Assembly (NCBI GenBank): GCA_022760475.1
Contig: JALEFZ010000035.1
Span: 62,001 to 126,000 of the forward strand
Source: Bacteroidia bacterium
GTDB lineage: Bacteria > Bacteroidota > Bacteroidia > J057
DNA length: 64,000 bases
Direction: 5' to 3'
Positions 939 to 9,663 of the stretch are shown one piece after another. Each line of letters starts with the position of its first letter. The first letter of the stretch is position 1. The notes below the pieces were generated by a model. It was not told where the DNA came from. It saw only the letters and a list, made by a program, of their open reading frames with translations, and ran no database searches. Made by a program: the position numbers and the translations under genes.

Positions 939-2201
939 CTAGGGAAAATTCATGCAATTCGGAATACGCAACTTTTCAGTTGACGCCCATTTTCTTAAGA
1001 CTTCGAGTTCATCTTTCTTTGGATCTCGGTTGGCAAATCCTCTCACCTCCACCATTTCTAGATTCTTGGTCAGACATATGGTCAGAAGTCTTTTGGGTGG
1101 CTGTGCATGTCGAATCAAACGCATAGACCAAATGGAGCTCTCACCAAGTTCGCATGACCAAACATAACTTCCCACGCAGTGTCTCATTTCCGCGCCTTCC
1201 TCTTGAATTTGAGACTCGCTCAAAAGTGGTACAATTTTATACGCTGATTTCCATGACTGAGAAAGGCTAAAGTCCCCAACTCTATTGTAGATGTTGTTTT
1301 TAGGGAATGGGTTGTTGTTGCAGGAGTTTTCATTGTATAATCGAGCTTCCGCAAGGAATTTGTTATAATTTCGACCTTTGACTTCCAATCCTGGTTTAGG
1401 AGGAGGAAGCAAATCATAAGATCCATTCCTGTTTAGCAGTCTTTGTGGTCGGAATTTTACTTGCTCAATATACTTGAGGATCTCATTGACCTCACTAGTA
1501 TCGTTGACCTCCTGGTGAGCTAACCACAGAATCAATCTTTCAATGAAGGCCTCCTCCGAGGGGTTATGATTTAGCATATGTGGGGTACCAAAAAAACTCG
1601 ATGCCATCATGTTAGCAAGAAACTGGCTCCCTCCAAGACCCAAAACCTGGGCATGGCGAAGGTTGGCCAAAATCCCCAACTGCTCTTTCCCATCCATGAA
1701 AAAGGCTGCCATTTTCTTCGTAACAGGAAAGGGTAAACCCTCACATTTCCTAAGGTTTTTACCCTGGGCAAGGTGGAAAAACCAATTCATATATAAGGTA
1801 TTTTGCTCAGCAAAAGCCCTAAACATAAAAGAAGGCATCTGATAACGTACGAATAGGAACTTGAGTAAATCACCACAAAAATGTCCATGAGTATCCCCAA
1901 TATTTATCGCAACCTTTTTATAATCCTCCCATGGAAATTTCTTAAGGGAGTTGATAAATCTATTTTTATAGGTCAAAATTCTTTGCCCGAGCCCCTGAAT
2001 GAAATATGAGTTTGTGGCTAAGTAATCAGGGAAACCAATCTGGATATATTTTCGCGCCTTGAGGTAGCTTCTGCGGTGAAATTCTTTTTGTTCCTTCTGC
2101 TGCTTAAAACGAAACTTGGATTCACGAAGGAGGGTAATGAATTCTTTTCTTTCCTTCATTTCTTGCTCCCTCAAGGCAATTCTTTTTTGTCGATTTGCCA
2201 T
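939..2201 (-). CDS. PcfJ domain-containing protein
   Basis: 420-residue protein. The C-terminal third carries the PcfJ hallmarks: the EMRHCVGSY motif (His341-Cys342), a following SSIWSMR strand and the MVEVRGFANRDPK strand that resembles the usual 'QIRGxxN' block. The N-terminus is a very basic, charged helix (about residues 1-60, many KE/KR pairs) that may be a coiled coil. No signal peptide is seen, so it should be cytoplasmic. PcfJ was first named in the Enterococcus plasmid pCF10, but homologues occur widely in phages and chromosomes, and their role is unknown. Upstream partner of the truncated paralogue at 1-910 (28-bp gap). Start chosen as the first ATG; the sequence before it is AT-rich and shows no other in-frame start. 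Confidence 0.8.
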   Translation of the reverse strand: MANRQKRIALREQEMKERKEFITLLRESKFRFKQQKEQKEFHRRSYLKARKYIQIGFPDYLATNSYFIQGLGQRILTYKNRFINSLKKFPWEDYKKVAINIGDTHGHFCGDLLKFLFVRYQMPSFMFRAFAEQNTLYMNWFFHLAQGKNLRKCEGLPFPVTKKMAAFFMDGKEQLGILANLRHAQVLGLGGSQFLANMMASSFFGTPHMLNHNPSEEAFIERLILWLAHQEVNDTSEVNEILKYIEQVKFRPQRLLNRNGSYDLLPPPKPGLEVKGRNYNKFLAEARLYNENSCNNNPFPKNNIYNRVGDFSLSQSWKSAYKIVPLLSESQIQEEGAEMRHCVGSYVWSCELGESSIWSMRLIRHAQPPKRLLTICLTKNLEMVEVRGFANRDPKKDELEVLRKWASTEKLRIPNCMNFP

Positions 2202-3284: not shown

Positions 3285-3368
3285 AGGAGGGTGAACCTTA
3301 AAAAATATAATTTGTTTCTCTCCACGTCCCCAACCACCCTGTCCCACATCCGGACGTAAAGAGCAAGG

Positions 3369-3440
3369 CACGGCAGGTAGGAATCGAACCTACTTATGCT
3401 GGTTTTGGAGACCAGAGCCTGACCATTAGGCTTCTGCCGT
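3369..3440 (-). tRNA. tRNA-Trp (CCA)
   Basis: 72 nt. Perfect 7-bp acceptor stem ACGGCAG/CTGCCGT, anticodon loop CTCCAAA in a 5-bp stem, canonical T-arm, and G73, the expected discriminator for bacterial tRNA-Trp. Last tRNA of the array in the direction of transcription. Confidence 0.95.
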
Positions 3441-3592
3441 GTATTTGGAGAGAATTTGAAAGTAAATTCTCTCCATGAGCTATCATTGGCGTTTTTCGCC
3501 ATCGGTGTCTTGCAAGTCTGTTTGCCATCATCAGGTTGATGATGAAGGTGAATACGTTTCTCATAGTTTTGGTAGTTAATATTTCACAAATG

Positions 3593-3668
3593 GGGTGAGC
3601 CGAAGGGATTCGAACCCTTACTTCCGGAACCACAATCCAGCGTGCTGCCCTTACACCACGGCCACCAT
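3593..3668 (-). tRNA. tRNA-His (GTG), acceptor stem irregular
   Basis: The anticodon arm (CTGGA, loop TTGTGGT, TCCGG) gives GTG, and the T-arm and 4-bp D-stem are normal. The acceptor does not close cleanly: 5' strand GGTGGCCG faces 3' strand CGGCTCACC, which pairs only if the U of the 3' strand is bulged out (GGTG-GCCG with CGGC-U-CACC). One nucleotide is therefore extra in the 3' strand or missing in the 5' strand. Ends are approximate. Confidence 0.8.
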
Positions 3669-3769
3669 ATTGGAGATAGACCTACTTTTTGAATGTTCTT
3701 GCTTATTGTTTTTCAGTAACAACCTATTCATTATCGTCTACCCCCTCTAAGAATGGAATTTATATCGGG

Positions 3770-3844
3770 TACCCGGAGTGGGATTCGAACCCACAGGAAA
3801 ACAGATTTTAAGTCTGTCGCGTCTGCCTATTTCGCCATCCGGGC
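3770..3844 (-). tRNA. tRNA-Leu (TAA), short variable arm
   Basis: 75 nt. Acceptor GCCCGGA/TCCGGGT, A73, Leu-type D-arm (GCAGACGC), anticodon loop CTTAAAA giving TAA, T-arm GTGGG/CCCAC. The variable region is only about six nucleotides (TTTCCT) with no helix, whereas bacterial tRNA-Leu normally has a long class II arm. Confidence 0.9.
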
Positions 3845-3849
3845 AAAGG

Positions 3850-3921
3850 TTGCGGGTACAGGAGTCGAACCTGTTTCTGGGGCTTATGAGACCCCCGAGA
3901 TAGCCATTTCTCTAACCCGCA
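3850..3921 (-). tRNA. tRNA with CAT anticodon (elongator Met or Ile2)
   Basis: 72 nt. Acceptor TGCGGGT/ACCCGCA with a paired U1-A72 and A73, anticodon loop CTCATAA. The 1-72 pair and the lack of three G-C pairs next to the loop (the last pair is T-G) argue against initiator tRNA. Sequence alone does not tell elongator Met from lysidine-modified Ile2; the array needs the latter to read AUA. Confidence 0.9.
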
Positions 3922-3927
3922 ATGTTG

Positions 3928-4000
3928 TGCACCAGGCAGGAATCGAACCCGCATCTTCTGGGTGGAAACCAGGTATCTTCAGCCATTGGACCACTGATGC
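3928..4000 (-). tRNA. tRNA-Gly (TCC)
   Basis: 73 nt. Acceptor GCATCAG/CTGGTGC (one G-T pair), anticodon loop TTTCCAC giving TCC, T-stem GCGGG/CCTGC. The outermost anticodon-stem pair is a C-A mismatch. A73 rather than the common U73. Confidence 0.9.
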
Positions 4001-4014
4001 ATATAATTAGGTGG

Positions 4015-4102
4015 CGGAAGCGATGGGACTCGAACCCACAAGTCCCTGTTAGGGGAGTCCCCGATTAGCAGTCGGGTGCCTTACCATTCGGCTCACACTT
4101 CC
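4015..4102 (-). tRNA. tRNA-Ser (GCT)
   Basis: 88 nt class II tRNA. Acceptor GGAAGTG/CGCTTCC, anticodon loop CTGCTAA in a CCCGA/TCGGG stem, long variable arm (about 20 nt), G73. It is preceded directly by a strong terminator (4103-4127), so it may begin a separate transcript with the Gly-to-Trp tRNAs. Confidence 0.95.
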
Positions 4103-4127
4103 AAAAAAGGGGCGGGAAGATCCCGCC
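4103..4127 (-). terminator. Intrinsic terminator inside the tRNA array
   Basis: On the minus strand a perfect 7-bp hairpin (GGCGGGA, loop TCT, TCCCGCC; bases 4111-4127) is followed by CC and six T (4108-4103). It ends transcription coming from tRNA-Arg(TCT) just before tRNA-Ser(GCT) and therefore also defines the 3' end of whatever the 4128-4311 spacer encodes. Confidence 0.8.
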
Positions 4128-4311
4128 GGGCTTTAGCGTGATTGGATTACCTCCTTTGTTTTTAGCCTTTTCCTTTGTCGTATTTTTAATCTTCACTCTG
4201 CTTTTCACCTTCGAAACAATACTTTCCCGAACTTTTGATCTCAGCCAGATAGACCAGTCGAAAGCCGTATGCTAACTGGCCTTCTTGCTAATTTTGAAAT
4301 GCTCAAGCATG
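4128..4311 (-). ncRNA. Unassigned structured spacer RNA between tRNA-Arg(TCT) and a terminator
   Basis: A 184-nt gap, long for this array, ending in a strong terminator. On the minus strand it begins with a short AT-rich stretch followed by a hairpin with a 7-bp stem (GGCCAGT with ACTGGTC, one G-T pair) and a loop of about 16 nt. No open frame has a convincing start. It may encode a small RNA co-transcribed with the tRNAs, or be a spacer only. Confidence 0.35.
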
Positions 4312-4384
4312 AGATCCCGGTAGGACTCGAACCCACACATATCTGGTTAGAACCCAGATGCTCTTCCAGTTGAGCTACGGGACC
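4312..4384 (-). tRNA. tRNA-Arg (TCT)
   Basis: 73 nt. Acceptor GGTCCCG/CGGGATC (one G-T), anticodon loop GTTCTAA in a TCTGG/CCAGA stem, T-stem GTGGG/CCTAC. The discriminator reads as U73, which is unusual for tRNA-Arg. Confidence 0.93.
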
Positions 4385-4390
4385 TGAATG

Positions 4391-4475
4391 CGGAAGGAGA
4401 GGGACTCGAACCCCCAAGTCCTTTCAGACATCACTGTTTTCAAGACAGGTGCAATAGCCATTCTGCCATCCTTCC
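4391..4475 (-). tRNA. tRNA-Ser (TGA)
   Basis: 85 nt class II tRNA. Acceptor GGAAGGA/TCCTTCC, anticodon loop CTTGAAA, long variable arm, G73. Reads the UCN box. Confidence 0.95.
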
Positions 4476-4480
4476 GTTTG

Positions 4481-4553
4481 CAATCCCGAGGAGAATCGAA
4501 CTCCTATCCCCACATGGAAAGTGTGGTGTCCTAAGCCATTAGACGACGGGATC
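4481..4553 (-). tRNA. tRNA-Glu (TTC)
   Basis: 73 nt. Acceptor GATCCCG/CGGGATT (terminal G-T), anticodon loop CTTTCCA in a CCACA/TGTGG stem, G73 as usual for Glu. First tRNA of the left half of the array, just beyond the serpin promoter region. Confidence 0.95.
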
Positions 4554-4614
4554 ATTTATTTTTTCAACAGCAGTTTTCATTTGGAATGCGTCTCCCCTAT
4601 GTTACTTTTAACCA

Positions 4615-5826
4615 ATGAAGACGATGAAACTCAAATTGCTTTTTCCAATTATCCTAATTTCAGGCCTCCTGTTTTCTTGTAGCCAGAATCCTCCCCTACC
4701 TGTTGGCAGTTTTGAGGATGTGAGTGAAGCCAACAATGATATGGGCTTCAGGATGTTAAAAAGACTTCAGGAACAGGAACCTGATAAAAACATTTTTATT
4801 TCGCCTTTCAGCATTACCTCAGCCCTTAGCATGACAGCCAATGGTGCCGAAGGAGCGACACAAACCGAGATGTACGAAGCCTTGGGACTATCCAAGCTCA
4901 CTGAGACCGAAGTCAACAGCCAATACAAAAACATTCTTACAGCACTGCTTCAGTCCTCTCAAGGATTAGATTTTAGCATTGCCAACGGAATCTTTTATCG
5001 AGATGGTTTTAACCCTAAAACGGACTTCCTGAATCAGGCCAATGATAATTTCGAAGGCAAAGTTGAAGGCCTCGACTTTGATGATCCATCTGCCAAAGTC
5101 CAAATCAATGAATGGGTTGAGAACCAAACTGAAGAGCGCATCAAGGATATGATCTCCAATATTTCTGCTGACGACATGATGTTCTTGATCAATACCATTT
5201 ACCTTAAAGGCCCATGGCTCAATGGTTTTCCTGAACGAAGTACCCGCAAGCAAATTTTCACCCTTAGTGATGGCAGCCAGGATTCCACAGATATGATGTG
5301 GCAGGATAGCCAATTTCCTTACTACCAAGGCTCAGACTTTGATGCAGCTTCTTTCTACCTGGGCAAAAATAAAGCTCGTTTTTCTGTCGACATTATCCTT
5401 CCTAAAGAAAGCAAAGGCCTTGAAGATGTTGTGAAGAATATTAGCTTGAGTTCTTATCAAAGTGCTATTGATGGAATGGACTCAAGCAGGATCATGGTTC
5501 AATTTCCCAAGTTGGAGCTTGACTATGAAGAACAACTGGGAGACGTCCTCAAGGAAATGGGCATAAAAAAAGCCTTTCAGGAACGAGAAGCAGACCTGAG
5601 CGGAATAGCTGAAGGGCAAAACCTGTTTATCTCAAGGGTAAAGCATAAAACTTTCCTAAAGGTAGACGAAACGGGCCTGGAAGCATCAGGAGCTACATCG
5701 GTAGGTGTCTCTGTAACCTCACTCCCACCCTCATTCTTCATGGATCACCCGTTTTTGATGATCATCCGCGACATCGAATCAGGCACCATTTTGTTCATGG
5801 GTAAAGTCGAAAATCCAAACGCCTAA
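4615..5826 (+). CDS. Serpin-family protease inhibitor, lipoprotein
   Basis: 403 residues. The N-terminus is a lipoprotein signal (hydrophobic stretch ending in LLFSC), so the mature protein should be lipid-anchored outside the inner membrane. Serpin hallmarks: FISPFSITSALSMTANGAEG near the N-terminus, NTIYLKGPW in the middle, and the C-terminal FFMDHPFLMIIRD block. Aligning the reactive loop with classical serpins (hinge VDETGLEASGATSV from residue 350) puts P1-P1' at Thr368-Ser369 followed by LPP; small hinge residues support an inhibitory serpin, although P14 is Leu rather than Thr/Ser. Small P1 residues suit elastase- or subtilisin-like targets (inference). It sits in the opposite orientation inside the tRNA array, ends in a hairpin terminator, and breaks the array in two. 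Bacterial serpins are sporadic and often thought to be acquired. Confidence 0.93.
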   Translation: MKTMKLKLLFPIILISGLLFSCSQNPPLPVGSFEDVSEANNDMGFRMLKRLQEQEPDKNIFISPFSITSALSMTANGAEGATQTEMYEALGLSKLTETEVNSQYKNILTALLQSSQGLDFSIANGIFYRDGFNPKTDFLNQANDNFEGKVEGLDFDDPSAKVQINEWVENQTEERIKDMISNISADDMMFLINTIYLKGPWLNGFPERSTRKQIFTLSDGSQDSTDMMWQDSQFPYYQGSDFDAASFYLGKNKARFSVDIILPKESKGLEDVVKNISLSSYQSAIDGMDSSRIMVQFPKLELDYEEQLGDVLKEMGIKKAFQEREADLSGIAEGQNLFISRVKHKTFLKVDETGLEASGATSVGVSVTSLPPSFFMDHPFLMIIRDIESGTILFMGKVENPNA

Positions 5827-5841
5827 ATGTTGGCAGAATAG

Positions 5842-5876
5842 GTAGAGACGTTCCGTACAACGTCTCTACACTTTTT
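5842..5876 (+). terminator. Terminator after the serpin gene
   Basis: An 11-bp perfect hairpin, GTAGAGACGTT (5842-5852) with AACGTCTCTAC (5859-5869), 6-nt loop, then a short T-run. The GTAGAGACG arm is a motif often repeated in Bacteroidota genomes. Confidence 0.7.
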
Positions 5877-5898
5877 CATCCTTTCGGCATCTCTCGGG

Positions 5899-5970
5899 AG
5901 ACCTTGGCAGGATTCGAACCTGCGACCGGCTGGTTCGTATCCAACTGCTCTTCCTCTAAGCTACAAGGCC
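5899..5970 (-). tRNA. tRNA-Arg (ACG)
   Basis: 72 nt. Acceptor GGCCTTG/CAAGGTC (one G-T), anticodon loop ATACGAA in a GTTGG/CCAGC stem, T-stem GCAGG/CCTGC. A34 would need TadA editing to inosine. Discriminator reads U73. Confidence 0.93.
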
Positions 5971-5987
5971 ATTCTTAAAAAATTGAG

Positions 5988-6057
5988 AGTCCGGAGTGGG
6001 AGTCGAACCCACCTGTAACAGTTTTGCAGGCTGATCGCACGCCATGTGCATCCGGAC
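5988..6057 (-). tRNA. tRNA-Cys (GCA)
   Basis: 70 nt. Acceptor GTCCGGA/TCCGGAC, U73 (Cys identity), D-stem GCAC/GTGC. The loop reads CTGCAAA, but the closing 31-39 pair is C-A and another stem pair is T-T, leaving a weak anticodon stem. Confidence 0.88.
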
Positions 6058-6095
6058 CAATGAGCCGGCCGTAGCCGACGTTCATAGTTGTGGAG

Positions 6096-6171
6096 TGGAC
6101 GAGGTGGGAATCGAACCCACCACAATTTGTTTGCAAGACAAATTCGCCAAAGCCTTGGGACATGCCCGCCC
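6096..6171 (-). tRNA. tRNA-Ala (TGC)
   Basis: 76 nt. Anticodon loop CTTGCAA in a strong 7-bp stem (AATTTGT/ACAAATT); acceptor GGGCGGG/CTCGTCC contains the G3-U70 pair that defines alanine identity; A73. Position 8 is C instead of the nearly universal U8, which normally makes a tertiary pair. Confidence 0.88.
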
Positions 6172-6175
6172 ATGG

Positions 6176-6248
6176 TATCCCCGACAGGGCTTGAACCTGT
6201 AACCCCCTGGTTAAAAGCCAGGTGCTCTGCCAATTGAGCTACGGAGAT
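6176..6248 (-). tRNA. tRNA-Lys (TTT)
   Basis: 73 nt. Acceptor ATCTCCG/CGGGGAT, anticodon loop CTTTTAA in a CCTGG/CCAGG stem, A73. Structurally normal. Confidence 0.95.
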
Positions 6249-6264
6249 AAGAACAATCAAAAAG

Positions 6265-6336
6265 CGACCCCGGTAGGATTCGAACCTACAACCACTTACT
6301 TAACAGGAAAGTGCTCTGCCATTGAGCTACAAGGTC
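6265..6336 (-). tRNA. tRNA-Asn (GTT)
   Basis: 72 nt. Acceptor GACCTTG/CGGGGTC (two G-T pairs), anticodon loop CTGTTAA, G73. One T-T mismatch in the anticodon stem (CTTTC/GTAAG). Confidence 0.92.
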
Positions 6337-6349
6337 AGGTCAACAAGAG

Positions 6350-6423
6350 TAGGAATGGCAGGATTCGAACCTGCAACCTTCTGGTTCTAAGCCAGACGCC
6401 TCTGCCAATTGGGCTACATTCCC
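6350..6423 (-). tRNA. tRNA-Leu (TAG), class I shape
   Basis: 74 nt. Acceptor GGGAATG/CATTCCT, A73, anticodon loop CTTAGAA in a TCTGG/CCAGA stem, T-stem GCAGG/CCTGC. The D-arm (GCCC...GGGC-like) and the 5-nt variable region are those of an ordinary class I tRNA, not of a class II tRNA-Leu. The anticodon reads CUN codons. Confidence 0.88.
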
Positions 6424-6441
6424 AAAATGGGGCTACTTGTA

Positions 6442-6492
6442 ACATCTGACTTTAAAGGAGTCGAACCTTCATAGCCACGAAGTATCAGATGT
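6442..6492 (-). ncRNA. 51-nt mini tRNA-like RNA (acceptor and T-arm only)
   Basis: On the minus strand an 8-bp perfect stem (ACATCTGA/TCAGATGT, 6485-6492 with 6442-6449) encloses about 35 nt. These hold a T-arm (GAAGG, loop TTCGACT, CCTTT) and a short CTTC/GAAG hairpin that competes with it. There is no D-arm and no anticodon arm. It lies in register between tRNA-Leu(TAG) and tRNA-Pro. It is either a deleted pseudo-tRNA or a minimal tRNA mimic. Confidence 0.55.
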
Positions 6493-6507
6493 CTACGGCA
6501 CCCGCTG

Positions 6508-6579
6508 TAAGGGTGACAGGAATCGAACCTGCGCCTTCTTGGTCCCAAACCAAGTGTCCAGCCATTGGACCACACCCTT
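6508..6579 (-). tRNA. tRNA-Pro (TGG)
   Basis: 72 nt. Perfect acceptor AAGGGTG/CACCCTT, anticodon loop TTTGGGA in a CTTGG/CCAAG stem, A73. Reads the CCN box. Confidence 0.93.
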
Positions 6580-6594
6580 ATATAATCTTTCTTG

Positions 6595-6676
6595 TGGGGA
6601 TGGTAGGATTCGAACCTACTCAGCCTGCGCAACGGATTTACAGTCCGCCCCAACTCTCCAACTTTGGCGCATCCCC
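6595..6676 (-). tRNA. tRNA-Tyr (GTA)
   Basis: 82 nt class II tRNA. Acceptor GGGGATG/CATCCCC, anticodon loop CTGTAAA in a GCGGA/TCCGT stem, long variable arm, A73. Confidence 0.94.
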
Positions 6677-6683
6677 AAATCTG

Positions 6684-6918
6684 TAGTCCCTACGGGATTC
6701 GAACCCGTACTCCCTAACGGGCCGACAGGCTCCAAGTGCGCTTCCCTACTAAGCTTCTTTAGAGAGGCTGTTCGGTGCTGTGGGATACTGGACTGTTCAT
6801 CCGATTTCTCCCTTCCGCGAATCCTACCCATTTGTTCGCTCAGATCAAACGGGATTTTCCTGTCTGTCCACGGCTGAGTGAACACTTACCGCAGCACTTC
6901 CTTTTATGCTAAGGGACC
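6684..6918 (-). ncRNA. 235-nt tRNA-like RNA with a large internal extension
   Basis: The two ends look like one tRNA: 5' GGTCCCT pairs with 3' AGGGACT (one G-T), followed by A73; the 5' end continues into a D-arm (GCAT...GTGC) and the 3' end is preceded by a normal T-arm (ACGGG, TTCGAAT, CCCGT). A GCGG/CCCGT helix could form the top of an anticodon stem. Between them lie about 160 extra nucleotides instead of a 7-nt loop, including a long-range 10-bp helix with one mismatch (GTTCACTCAG with CTGAGCGAAC). No G3-U70 pair and no tag-like reading frame, so not tmRNA; no group I intron core seen. It may be an interrupted tRNA or a tRNA-mimicking RNA related to the neighbouring Ro60 system. Confidence 0.55.
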
Positions 6919-6923
6919 TAAGG

Positions 6924-6998
6924 TAGGTTTGGCAGGAATCGAACCTGCGACCCTCTGTTTGTAAGACAGATGCTCTGAACCGACTGAGCTACAAACCC
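6924..6998 (-). tRNA. tRNA-Val (TAC)
   Basis: 75 nt. Acceptor GGGTTTG/CAAACCT, anticodon loop CTTACAA in a TCTGT/ACAGA stem, T-stem GCAGG/CCTGC, A73. Structurally normal. Confidence 0.95.
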
Positions 6999-7012
6999 AT
7001 GTGAAGACATGG

Positions 7013-7084
7013 TGAGTTTGGCAGGATTTGAACCTACGACCGTCTACGTATCAGGCAGATGCTCTACCGCTGAGCTACAAACTC
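7013..7084 (-). tRNA. tRNA-Ile (GAT)
   Basis: 72 nt. Acceptor GAGTTTG/CAAACTC, anticodon loop CTGATAC in a TCTGC/GTAGA stem, A73. Decodes AUU and AUC. Confidence 0.95.
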
Positions 7085-7109
7085 AAATAAAATTACTCAT
7101 AGACTGTTG

Positions 7110-7181
7110 TGGAACAGTGTGGATTCGAACCACCCCCTTCCGGGCTTCAACCGGACGCTCTGCCACCTAAGCTACAGTTCC
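7110..7181 (-). tRNA. tRNA-Phe (GAA)
   Basis: 72 nt. Anticodon loop TTGAAGC in a TCCGG/CCGGA stem, A73. There is one T-T mismatch in the acceptor (GGAACTG/CTGTTCC) and one G-A mismatch at the base of the T-stem. Confidence 0.9.
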
Positions 7182-7202
7182 AAAATAAATCAGGGTAAAA
7201 GC

Positions 7203-7300
7203 GAACTTCGACCGGGGAATCGCAATGGGGATTTGCACCCCTCCCCGATAGCAATGCCATCGAGGCCCTACCCCTTTATGAGAGCGAAGTAACGAAGTTC
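7203..7300 (-). ncRNA. 98-nt tRNA-like RNA without a usable anticodon
   Basis: A perfect 8-bp terminal stem (GAACTTCG/CGAAGTTC) encloses a D-arm-like hairpin (GCTC...GGGC), a hairpin in the anticodon position whose 7-nt loop GCATTGC lacks the universal U33, and a T-arm-like hairpin (GGGG, TGCAAAT, CCCC) extended by an outer GGGGA/TCCCC helix. The order of arms is that of a tRNA, but the linkers are too long and the anticodon loop is wrong. It contains one copy of the GTTACTTCG motif shared with the 7498-7571 and 7610-7731 RNAs. Confidence 0.45.
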
Positions 7301-7317
7301 TACGACACCTGAATTCG

Positions 7318-7389
7318 AGGCTCCGGAGGGATTTGAACCCTCACCAACTGATTACAAGTCAGTCGTTCTGCCGATTAAACTACAAAGCC
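7318..7389 (-). tRNA. tRNA-Thr (TGT)
   Basis: 72 nt. Acceptor GGCTTTG/CGGAGCC, anticodon loop CTTGTAA in an ACTGA/TCAGT stem, U73. Reads the ACN box. Confidence 0.94.
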
Positions 7390-7396
7390 TTCTAAG

Positions 7397-7467
7397 ATGC
7401 CCAACCAGGATTCGAACCTGGAGCCCCACAGCCAAAATGTGGTGTCCTGCCTTTAGACCATTGGGCA
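7397..7467 (-). tRNA. tRNA-Gln (TTG)
   Basis: 71 nt. Perfect acceptor TGCCCAA/TTGGGCA, anticodon loop TTTTGGC in a CCACA/TGTGG stem, T-stem CCAGG/CCTGG. U1-A72 as in many tRNA-Gln; the discriminator reads U rather than G. Confidence 0.92.
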
Positions 7468-7497
7468 GAATTGGCGGTAACTTGCGAAAAGAGTGTG

Positions 7498-7571
7498 GAA
7501 TATCGACGGGATTCGAACCCGCTACCATCTGATCCGGAATCAAATGCTCTAACCAAATGAGCTACGAAGTA
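7498..7571 (-). tRNA. tRNA-Arg (CCG)-like, acceptor stem broken
   Basis: D-arm (GCTC/GAGC), anticodon arm (TTTGA, loop TTCCGGA, TCAGA; anticodon CCG) and T-arm (GCGGG/CCCGT) are all tRNA-like, but the acceptor strands TACTTCG and CGATATT pair at only four of seven positions. It is either a decayed tRNA or one partner of the tRNA-like RNA family here. Both acceptor strands recur, joined by two bases, inside the RNA at 7610-7731. Confidence 0.65.
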
Positions 7572-7609
7572 ACCCTTTCCTAACGACACGCCTATCTGTA
7601 AATATCTTT

Positions 7610-7731
7610 GGGGCAACTACCGAGAAAAGACTATTGGCGCTCTACCACCTGAGCTACAGGGTCACCCCTGGCAGGACTCGAACCTGCGACCACCCGAATA
7701 TCGATCGAAGTAACTTTTCTCTACGGCACCC
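7610..7731 (-). ncRNA. Candidate Y RNA with circularly permuted tRNA domain
   Basis: On the minus strand the 5' and 3' ends pair by a perfect 8-bp helix (GAGAAAAG/CTTTTCTC, 7714-7721 with 7622-7629), extended outward by GG/CC and GGG/CCC pairs with bulges. Inside, in order, are a T-arm (GCAGG, TTCGAGT, CCTGC; 7671-7687), an acceptor-like 5-bp hairpin CAGGG/CCCTG closed by a GUGA tetraloop (7657-7670), and a D-arm (GCTC...GAGC; 7639-7654). A normal tRNA has the reverse order, so the RNA termini fall where the anticodon stem would be. From family knowledge, bacterial YrlA-type Y RNAs carry a tRNA-like module and are usually encoded next to the Ro60 gene, which is the case here. The bulged terminal helix would be the Ro60-binding stem (inference). 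Confidence 0.65.
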
Positions 7732-7744
7732 AAAATTTTTGATG

Positions 7745-7813
7745 AAACGCCAATGGGAGTTGAACCCATATCTACCTTCACAGGCCGCTTTTATTCCTTT
7801 AAGCTATGGCGTT
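7745..7813 (-). ncRNA. Anticodon-less tRNA-like RNA
   Basis: 69 nt. Perfect acceptor AACGCCA/TGGCGTT, 8-9 linker TA, D-stem GCTT/AAGC, T-arm ATGGG, TTCAACT, CCCAT. Where the 17-nt anticodon arm should be there is a 4-bp hairpin GCCT/AGGT capped by a GUGA tetraloop (7774-7785). It can fold as a tRNA but cannot decode a codon. The same GUGA loop closes the acceptor-like hairpin of the candidate Y RNA next to it. Confidence 0.65.
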
Positions 7814-7867
7814 TGTGCCCTTGAATCGTACGTCAAAGTGCTTTGCCTGAGGCAATCCCAGGCCGAA

Positions 7868-7972
7868 CATGACTGTTCAGCGTCATTTCATGACTTTTCT
7901 TTGTTGTGAAACATTAAGCTGAGCTTAAATGCTCCCTGGCTTCGTAATTGTCATGATGCCTGAACAGCATCT
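7868..7972 (-). ncRNA. Structured RNA candidate between tRNA-like RNA and tRNA-Asp
   Basis: A long-range helix of 8 bp (CTGTTCAG 7873-7880 with CTGAACAG 7960-7967) and, after an internal loop, 6 bp (CATGAC 7889-7894 with GTCATG 7950-7955) closes a loop holding a second hairpin (CATTAAGC...GCTTAAATG with one bulge). There is no tRNA T-arm and no open frame. A stem with an internal loop closing a large loop is the general plan of a Y RNA, and the location beside the Ro60 gene fits. The strand is assumed from its neighbours. Confidence 0.4.
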
Positions 7973-7998
7973 TCTGTCTGACCAGTATGGTCATCTTG

Positions 7999-8070
7999 CG
8001 ACCCAGACGGGAATCGAACCCGCTTCTACCACATAGACAGTGTGGCGTCCCGCCATGGGACCTCTGGGTC
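7999..8070 (-). tRNA. tRNA-Asp (GTC)
   Basis: 72 nt. Acceptor GACCCAG/CTGGGTC, anticodon loop CTGTCTA in a CCACA/TGTGG stem, T-stem GCGGG/CCCGT, G73 as expected for Asp. First tRNA downstream of the Ro60 gene, 69 bp after its stop codon; the gap holds a GTAGCG/CGCTAC hairpin. Confidence 0.95.
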
Positions 8071-8139: not shown

Positions 8140-9663
8140 TTATACTTCGATGTCTTCAATTTGGGCCAGGACTTTCTCCCTGCCCTCAAGTGATGATAGG
8201 ATGTCAAAAATTTTCTCTGACCATCCCCCAATCAGGAAGACATCTTTTCTTATCGATTTCAATGGAGCCTGCCCATATCCAGCCAAATCAAAAATGTAGA
8301 TCTTGGCATCAGGTGCGATCCTTTTGTATTTATTCCAATACATTTCAATCGTCTCATTGCTCCCGTAATTCGAGTTCCAGAGTTGGCAATCTGTGAAGAC
8401 AAAAACCTTGTCTACAATGATTCTCCTCTTGAATAACTCCCTGATAGCCAAGTAACCATTGGTAGAATGCCCTACTTTCACCCGCTTCATGGCTTCGACA
8501 TTGGCAAGGATTCCCTTGTTTCCCAAAGCGACCGTTTCATAAGTCTCTCCAAATAAGCCAGTGATCACATGCTTGCATTTGCTTTTTAGCAAACTCGCCA
8601 GGACAAGGCCTACTTCCATTAGCCTGATCTTTGATTTGCCTGAAATTGCCTGATCCATTGAACCCGACATATCCGCAGCAATCAAAATCCTGGTATCCAG
8701 CTCAAAACCCTTAAGGTTTTCAACTGAAGCAAGCATGGCTCCTTCAAGGGCATCCAGGAAATAGGCGCTATATCCTGATTTGTGGTCTCGAAGCTCCTTA
8801 TAGGCCGAATAGTACCTGAATGGCAATTGCTTGGATTTCTTCACGGCTGAAGGACTTGCCAAATACCTGGCTGCCTTCTCTACCGCCTCTCTCGAAACTC
8901 CATAATCCAACAGATTTCTGAGGTTTCTTAGCAATGCCATGTATGCAAGTTTCTCACTCAGGATCAACTCTTCCCACTTCTGACGAAAAGCTGCCTCCTT
9001 GGCCTTTTGGCTGGCAAATTTCTCCTGCCCTGCTTTTGATAGCTCAGTTTCCCATGTATAAGGCACTGAAAGGCTACCTGAAATGATTTTATCAAAGATC
9101 TCTTGTTGTTTTGCATCCTTTGCCTTTGGGTGAACCAGAAATAACGCATCTCTCAAGCTTACTTCTGCTGCCCTGTTATACTTTGCAAATTGATACTCAT
9201 CAAATCGGTTAAATGCCTCGGCTACTCCCTTCTGCAACTGCTTCGAAAGCCTTCCCAGCTTTTTGGCACCCGACCTTTTATTTGTTATCTGGTAGTAAGC
9301 CAGCAATTCAGTAATCTCATCAGGCCTCTTAATGACCCTCGATAATGCTTTCCTGACCAGGCTATCTCCATTGTGAACCTTCGCTAATTCCACCAGCAAT
9401 ACTACTGGAACTGTTCTGAGGTACATTTTTTCCCTTGCATACACTGCTAGCTTGGCTACGAAGCCAGGATCCTTATTCGCGATCTGTTCTACCAGCTCAA
9501 TGATCCTTTTTAACCTTTCATCTCCGCTTTCATAAAATGATTTTTGCAGGAGGGTCGACACTGTAGCAGTATATAGTTCCAACTTCGAGCTTAAGGTGTA
9601 TGCCAAAGCACCTTCATGATTATTCGTAACAGTTTGTCCCTTTTTCTTTAGATTAAATCTCAT
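8140..9663 (-). CDS. rsr: TROVE domain protein, bacterial Ro60 orthologue (Rsr)
   Basis: 507 residues, the normal size for bacterial Ro60. Residues 1 to about 345 form the TROVE domain, a ring of helical HEAT-like repeats that binds Y RNA on its outside and the single-stranded ends of misfolded RNAs in its hole; the diagnostic SFYESGDERL block is at about 42-51. Residues from about 325 form a vWA domain with the MIDAS motif DMSGSM (Asp331). No signal peptide, so cytoplasmic. In Deinococcus, Ro60 with Y RNA assists RNA maturation and, with PNPase, structured-RNA decay, mainly under stress. Here the gene lies at the head of the tRNA array on the same strand, 69 bp from tRNA-Asp, so gene and array could share a transcript. 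Several tRNA-like RNAs follow, one with Y-RNA architecture. Start at 9663 is the first Met and aligns with the family N-terminus. Confidence 0.93.
   Translation of the reverse strand: MRFNLKKKGQTVTNNHEGALAYTLSSKLELYTATVSTLLQKSFYESGDERLKRIIELVEQIANKDPGFVAKLAVYAREKMYLRTVPVVLLVELAKVHNGDSLVRKALSRVIKRPDEITELLAYYQITNKRSGAKKLGRLSKQLQKGVAEAFNRFDEYQFAKYNRAAEVSLRDALFLVHPKAKDAKQQEIFDKIISGSLSVPYTWETELSKAGQEKFASQKAKEAAFRQKWEELILSEKLAYMALLRNLRNLLDYGVSREAVEKAARYLASPSAVKKSKQLPFRYYSAYKELRDHKSGYSAYFLDALEGAMLASVENLKGFELDTRILIAADMSGSMDQAISGKSKIRLMEVGLVLASLLKSKCKHVITGLFGETYETVALGNKGILANVEAMKRVKVGHSTNGYLAIRELFKRRIIVDKVFVFTDCQLWNSNYGSNETIEMYWNKYKRIAPDAKIYIFDLAGYGQAPLKSIRKDVFLIGGWSEKIFDILSSLEGREKVLAQIEDIEV

Follow-up and report, generated by a model that had tools for sequence, protein, structure and literature searches.

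A conserved RNA with a tRNA body and an inserted three-way-junction domain, encoded in a Bacteroidia tRNA array beside Ro60

What kind of RNA begins and ends like a transfer RNA (tRNA), sits among tRNA genes, and is called neither a tRNA nor a transfer-messenger RNA (tmRNA) by ARAGORN, and what might it do there? We addressed this question for a gene of 235 nucleotides (nt) from a Bacteroidia bacterium with a genome of 6.86 megabases. The window, that is, the whole stretch of DNA analysed, is 64,000 nt long (contig JALEFZ010000035.1, positions 62,001–126,000; assembly GCA_022760475.1). The RNA gene lies at window positions 6684–6918 on the minus strand, as do all its parts given below. It forms one unit of an array of 23 tRNAs called by ARAGORN (3367–8070, minus strand), 3 nt from a tRNA-Val and 7 nt from a tRNA-Tyr. 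The array lies 3′ of a Ro60 (TROVE) protein gene on the same strand (8140–9663; Pfam TROVE, E = 1.4e-32; vWA_Ro60, E = 5.7e-8), which is thus upstream of the RNA. Judged from sequence comparison, the RNA consists of a full tRNA body into which a three-way-junction domain is inserted, the core of this domain being conserved and loop-E-like, and it belongs to a conserved, covarying family without a match in Rfam; our covariance model of this family, R1, covers the window RNA over its full length at 151.7 bits.

The elements follow one another in the order acceptor stem, D-arm, a hairpin at the anticodon-arm position, helix H3 (which encloses hairpin H4 and a long arm), variable-arm hairpin and T-arm. 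The acceptor stem pairs GGTCCCT (6912–6918) with AGGGACT (6685–6691, assigned from sequence and covariation) over 7 base pairs, one of them a terminal G-U, and is followed by A73 (6684); all seven pairs are changed on both sides among the 32 bacterial members of the family. The D-arm, GCAT-AAAAGGAA-GTGC (6894–6909), has a stem paired in 95.5% of alignment cells, and four of the five pairs of the T-arm, ACGGG-TTCGAAT-CCCGT (6692–6708), are changed on both sides. The two parts of the tRNA elbow, GG in the D-loop and TTCRA in the T-loop, are each found in 31/32 members, and the window RNA shares with the Rfam tRNA family RF00005 the acceptor stem, the D-arm with GG and the T-arm with TTCRA. The first-pass annotation had proposed a single tRNA body at both ends, and the same body with its insert indeed recurs in 32 members. 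It had also placed the insert in the anticodon loop, and this we correct: the anticodon-arm position is taken by a self-contained hairpin (6868–6894), variable in the length and sequence of its loop, with 6/6 pairs double-changed and 99.5% paired, and the large domain lies between this hairpin and the variable arm and T-arm. In two members, L234 and L240, which total 233 and 262 nt, this hairpin is extended by a long stretch of extra sequence.

The inserted domain folds into further helices, as had been suggested, and H3 and H4 covary across the 32 members. H3 (5′ strand 6859–6864; 3′ strand 6724–6729, placed by covariation) closes the domain, with 5/6 pairs double-changed and 99.0% paired, and within it lies H4 (6827–6853; 7/9 pairs double-changed, 92.7% paired). 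The conserved arm reads GCACC-GAA...AGTA-GG-GAA-GC (6740–6778), in which GCACYGAA occurs in 32/32 and AGTA in 30/32 bacterial members. In this arm GAA stands across from AGTA, adjoining a C-G helix; we take this to be the signature of loop E (bulged-G) and infer that the core of the arm is loop-E-like. An additional short helix in the long arm shows exchange between A-U and G-C in 9/23 rows. The window member has an extra hairpin of its own in the internal loop of the long arm (6782–6812), which is a gap in the other alignment rows and was drawn from a consensus-constrained fold. The variable-arm hairpin, CCC-GTTA-GGG (6712–6721), has 3/3 pairs double-changed.

The support for this structure is comparative. 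In the alignment of 32 rows, which was fitted to R1 and hence leans towards the structure, and with counts that ignore the relatedness of members, 96.7% of the cells of the 44-pair structure form standard pairs (shuffles, 75.0), 36/44 pairs are double-changed (shuffles, 23.8) and covariation scores 0.644 versus 0.230 in shuffles; none of 500 shuffles reached 0.644, and slid controls stayed at or below 0.126. A MAFFT alignment of 11 members, from which the structure was itself partly drawn, gave 27/44 double-changed pairs and a covariation score of 0.570 versus 0.215.

When selected loci were scanned for acceptor and T-arm partners lying far apart, two Chryseobacterium RNAs came up with a D-arm nearly the same as that in the window, and their profile recovered the window (E = 6e-10) together with nine more Ro60-linked loci among the fetched records. 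Across 82 sources, R1 gave 12 members at least 110 bits, versus at most 33.6 bits for tRNAs. The 32 bacterial members score 74.8–219.1 bits, all over the full model (positions 1–192), and non-members at most 34.5 bits; R1 matches at four loci without the core (L065, L037, L096 and L099) were excluded. The RNA is carried by 7 of 396 genomes in a sample of the class and by 11 of 298 in a sample of the family of genome G247, which we tentatively label Flavobacteriaceae because the closest RNAs sit in Flavobacterium loci. With a core model, R2, we found 11 carriers among 48 genomes chosen for having Ro60 and 3 among 395 genomes of a sample overlapping that of the class, the latter an undercount, since the extra hairpin makes R2 miss the genome of the window itself. 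Among 13 genomes of the window's own family, a nucleotide search matched significantly the window alone, and R1 found no further member (next best, 34.5 bits). A blastn search with one Flavobacterium member had zero matches in plasmids and annotated phages, and the promoter motif TAnnTTTG had no exact match upstream of 22 members.

The family extends to viral contigs. A core-pattern scan of IMG/VR gave seven stretches, six of which hold the RNA at 48–73 bits; the seventh, L127, has neither tRNA ends nor a model match and was dropped. A second pattern over IMG/VR gave no new member (L129–L132 were rejected), and a third gave 77 stretches, 71 of them new, which were scanned with R1; L163, L159 and, weakly, L214 were kept. 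This makes 9 divergent viral members in total, the weakest being L214, because its 33.2 bits fall inside the tRNA range; it was retained because it has the core motif and tRNA ends. Eight of the nine viral stretches contain tRNAs (there are none in L123, a stretch of 2.4 kilobases (kb)), and the nearest lie 4 and 15, 5, 5 and 6 nt from the RNA, and 3 nt in L214. Genes near viral members include anaerobic ribonucleotide reductase, tRNA-His guanylyltransferase and a Sak4-like family match. One viral contig, L126, encodes at 60–1778 a Ro60-like protein of 572 amino acids (vWA_Ro60 and TROVE matches below cut-off), together with a tRNA array and the RNA. For the viral members another pairing was considered and dropped, as by eye it is not kept in bacteria.

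Rfam at gathering thresholds has zero matches in 6684–6918, and at relaxed thresholds (E up to 5) the sole match is a partial tRNA (RF00005, 6692–6755, 19.2 bits; cut-off 29); Rfam gave no above-threshold tRNA with an anticodon arm, and ARAGORN calls no tRNA there. Two independent tRNAs within the interval are rejected. By the tests run, this RNA is neither a YrlA nor a tmRNA, and neither an ordinary tRNA nor a group I intron, and the earlier suggestion of a new class of extended tRNA-like RNA is supported by the conserved, covarying family. We found no description of it in the open PMC literature, where titles and the beginnings of abstracts were searched; all preprints and the majority of subscription papers lie outside this search, so that an earlier published description may exist.

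We then consider the genes around the members. At distances of up to 10 kb from the 32 bacterial members, in counts made without a random-locus control, there is a WYL regulator at 19 loci, Ro60 at 18, RtcB at 15 (three of them just 27–29% identical to the query), SPFH/slipin at 15, PrfH at 6, an RNase H-like protein at 5 and an Rnl2-like ligase at 4, and all 32 loci have at least one of these genes; the RtcB, PrfH and Rnl2 queries were named by NCBIfam, that of RtcB only below curated cut-offs. The Ro60 count is inflated, because 11/32 members were found beside Ro60. At least three tRNAs on the strand of the RNA are present in 24 of 41 bacterial and viral loci. In the 396 class genomes, TROVE occurs in 19 and together with the RNA in 5 of its 7 carriers (P = 2.9e-6, hypergeometric, phylogeny uncorrected), and in 8 of the 11 core carriers among the Ro60-bearing genomes the RNA lies at most 10 kb from the Ro60 gene. 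In many Bacteroidota genomes (L015–L094), as many as 28 tRNAs are clustered in an array no more than 10 kb from Ro60. At L151 (10405–11961, minus strand), a Ro60 44% identical to that of the window has the RNA downstream, and the same Xanthocytophaga genome holds another Ro60 (L037).

Our reading, to which we assign a probability of roughly 45%, is that the RNA is a structured RNA of an unlisted family that is released as a tRNA is and acts as a tRNA-shaped scaffold or competitor in a response to RNA damage. RNase P and RNase Z would cut it out of the array transcript, CCA would be added and the RNA would persist as a stable species; tRNA-handling proteins would hold its tRNA elbow, its loop-E arm may dock a partner, and it would serve as scaffold or competitor when tRNAs and ribosomes are damaged. 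It is probably neither translated nor spliced. A more specific version, which we put forward tentatively, is a damage-response particle whose RNA has its tRNA body bound by RtcB, PrfH-linked rescue and Ro60 and recruits or guides a dedicated partner through the loop-E arm; the RNA of such a particle would favour bacterium or phage, whichever side, once tRNAs or ribosomes are cut. In the accessible parts of the published work, the rsr-yrlBA-rtcBA operon of Salmonella is responsive to damaged tRNAs (PMC7790460), and a TROVE protein present in some jumbo phages is described as acting, in cells, together with a partner that resembles tRNA (PMC7824862). This work supports the setting of the RNA, not the RNA itself.

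Several observations weigh against this reading. Folded as a single sequence, the window RNA has z = −1.80 with 5/200 shuffles equally good, and its consensus structure sits 10.6 kcal/mol above the computed minimum, which makes the single-sequence fold a weak guide; the inner helices were not recovered in five viral members folded alone. The neighbour counts are uncontrolled, and WYL and SPFH genes are common. At L148–L150 Ro60 is elsewhere in the genome, away from the RNA; genome G227 carries the RNA and lacks Ro60; and in the Flavobacteriaceae sample TROVE occurs in 1/11 carriers, the other ten, G247 included, being without Ro60. In six loci (L083, L064, L118, L119, L061 and L088) there is by eye a terminator-like hairpin between Ro60 and the RNA, so that co-transcription of the two cannot be taken as given. 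The first-pass claim that the RNA belongs with Ro60 therefore stands in part: it holds here and, in a biased count, at 18/32 loci, but not for most Flavobacteriaceae carriers. Flavobacteriaceae carriers without Ro60 have the RNA inside or close to a tRNA array, together with slipin and, in many cases, RtcB and PrfH, so that what stays constant is a setting of tRNA supply and RNA repair, of which Ro60 is one version.

Other explanations of the same architecture have to be weighed. A relative of tmRNA that enters the ribosome without a tag would share the overall plan, in which a tRNA end is joined to a large domain with a closing helix where the anticodon stem would be, and PrfH, a neighbour in 6/32 loci, is a release-factor homologue; we nevertheless judge it quite improbable, since the interval has neither an Rfam tmRNA match (RF00023) nor an ARAGORN tmRNA call, position 3-70 is T3-A70 in the window RNA and G3-U70 in only 1/28 members, no reading frame is by eye shared across the 28, and an ordinary tmRNA is called separately in viral contig L122. 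On the same evidence tmRNA itself is rejected, in agreement with the first-pass annotation; a protein-coding insert is rejected as well. It had also been suggested that an unknown element interrupts a tRNA here; an intron-like element of this kind would be spliced out. Both tRNA ends are intact, as this requires, but every member has both the body and the insert (32/32 bacterial matches span model positions 1–192), no insert-free version and no arm with a conserved anticodon was seen, H3 covaries freely, unlike a single anticodon stem, and the interval has no Rfam intron match, making an interrupted tRNA highly improbable. A group I intron, already doubted, is rejected for want of an Rfam match at gathering thresholds or at E up to 5.

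The tRNA body and the hairpin with variable loop at the anticodon position, in viral as well as bacterial tRNA arrays, would also suit a decoy that soaks up or inhibits the nucleases of phages, toxins or stress that cut tRNA anticodon loops, while itself lacking a normal anticodon, and a role as competitive inhibitor of a nuclease is suggested for the tRNA-like domain of YrlA by the authors of the Salmonella study, in its accessible part (PMC7790460). Neither the long arm nor the invariant loop-E-like core, both of which rank with the best conserved parts of the RNA, would be needed in a decoy, and we regard this explanation as unlikely. A second kind of Y RNA, whose inserted domain binds Ro60 and whose tRNA body is the effector end, would be the non-permuted counterpart of YrlA. 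Ro60 shares the strand of the RNA in 18/18 bacterial loci holding it within 10 kb, and in several loci the RNA is the first unit after Ro60, directly before the Y RNAs. Separate Y RNAs do sit beside it: most Bacteroidota Ro60 loci (L015–L094) have rows of one to six Y-RNA-like genes with TGYCGTAG...ACTTCG, a sequence with a putative role in Ro60 binding, and around 22 members a relaxed form of this motif occurs 84 times on the strand of the RNA and 3 times on the other, begins 17–59 nt past the RNA in 7/22 loci and never appears in the five loci without Ro60. In the window the motif matches on the minus strand at 7728, 7307 and 6500 only, and its strict form is absent from the RNA. The YrlA module is a permuted tRNA-like fold, T-arm before D-arm, between the strands of a Y stem, as seen at 7590–7740, where Rfam has the window's only clear, though sub-threshold, YrlA match (7636–7694, 44.6 bits); in 6684–6918 the D-arm precedes the T-arm, the ends are closed by an acceptor stem and RF02553 (YrlA) has no match at E up to 5. 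Membership in YrlA is rejected on these three grounds of model, permutation and motif, and with most Flavobacteriaceae carriers lacking Ro60, a second kind of Y RNA seems rather improbable. A GTTCTTT string lies between the RNA and the next Y RNA in L083, L064, L118 and L119, and an ARAGORN tRNA-Arg(ccg) at 7497–7589 (minus strand) overlaps a relaxed Y motif (offset −905) and may be a Y RNA instead.

The RNA adds a family with covariation-supported structure to loci whose known noncoding partners, as far as the accessible sources go, are Y RNAs. It links Ro60/Y RNA systems, RtcB-PrfH repair, bacterial tRNA arrays and viral tRNA islands, and through it the purpose of such islands becomes a testable question. 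The novelty lies in the RNA family and its architecture, tRNA mimicry being already known as a general idea.

The rest of the array holds further features. A serpin gene (4615–5826) lies within it on the opposite, plus strand, and a PcfJ-like gene (939–2201, minus strand) past its end. Two minus-strand units escape ARAGORN: 5988–6058, a sub-threshold Rfam tRNA-Sec (31.1 bits) that looks by eye like a tRNA-Cys (GCA) with an odd D-arm, and 7745–7813, an Rfam tRNA (45.4 bits) whose anticodon stem is by eye poor.

Among known systems, tmRNA resembles the RNA in its tRNA acceptor and T-arm with a big inserted domain, whereas the RNA lacks the G3-U70 rule, a tag frame and a model match, and its core differs. 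ROOL is much larger than the present RNAs. Like them, ROOL and GOLLD, the latter often over 800 nt, are structured, belong to phages and prophages and occur close to tRNA islands, but no tRNA chassis is described for either in the accessible part of the source (PMC12286853), and their Rfam families have no match in the window, in L067 or in the viral member L124. With YrlA the RNA shares a noncoding nature, a tRNA-like module and a position next to Ro60, often as the neighbouring gene; it differs in its normal tRNA order, acceptor-stem ends, loop-E-like arm, lack of a Y motif and occurrence without Ro60. Finally, the rsr-yrlBA-rtcBA operon has Y RNAs named as its noncoding RNAs, and none of the present kind, in the accessible part of the report (PMC7790460), while the kinds of neighbouring genes in this and in RtcB/PrfH repair operons match those at many of the member loci.
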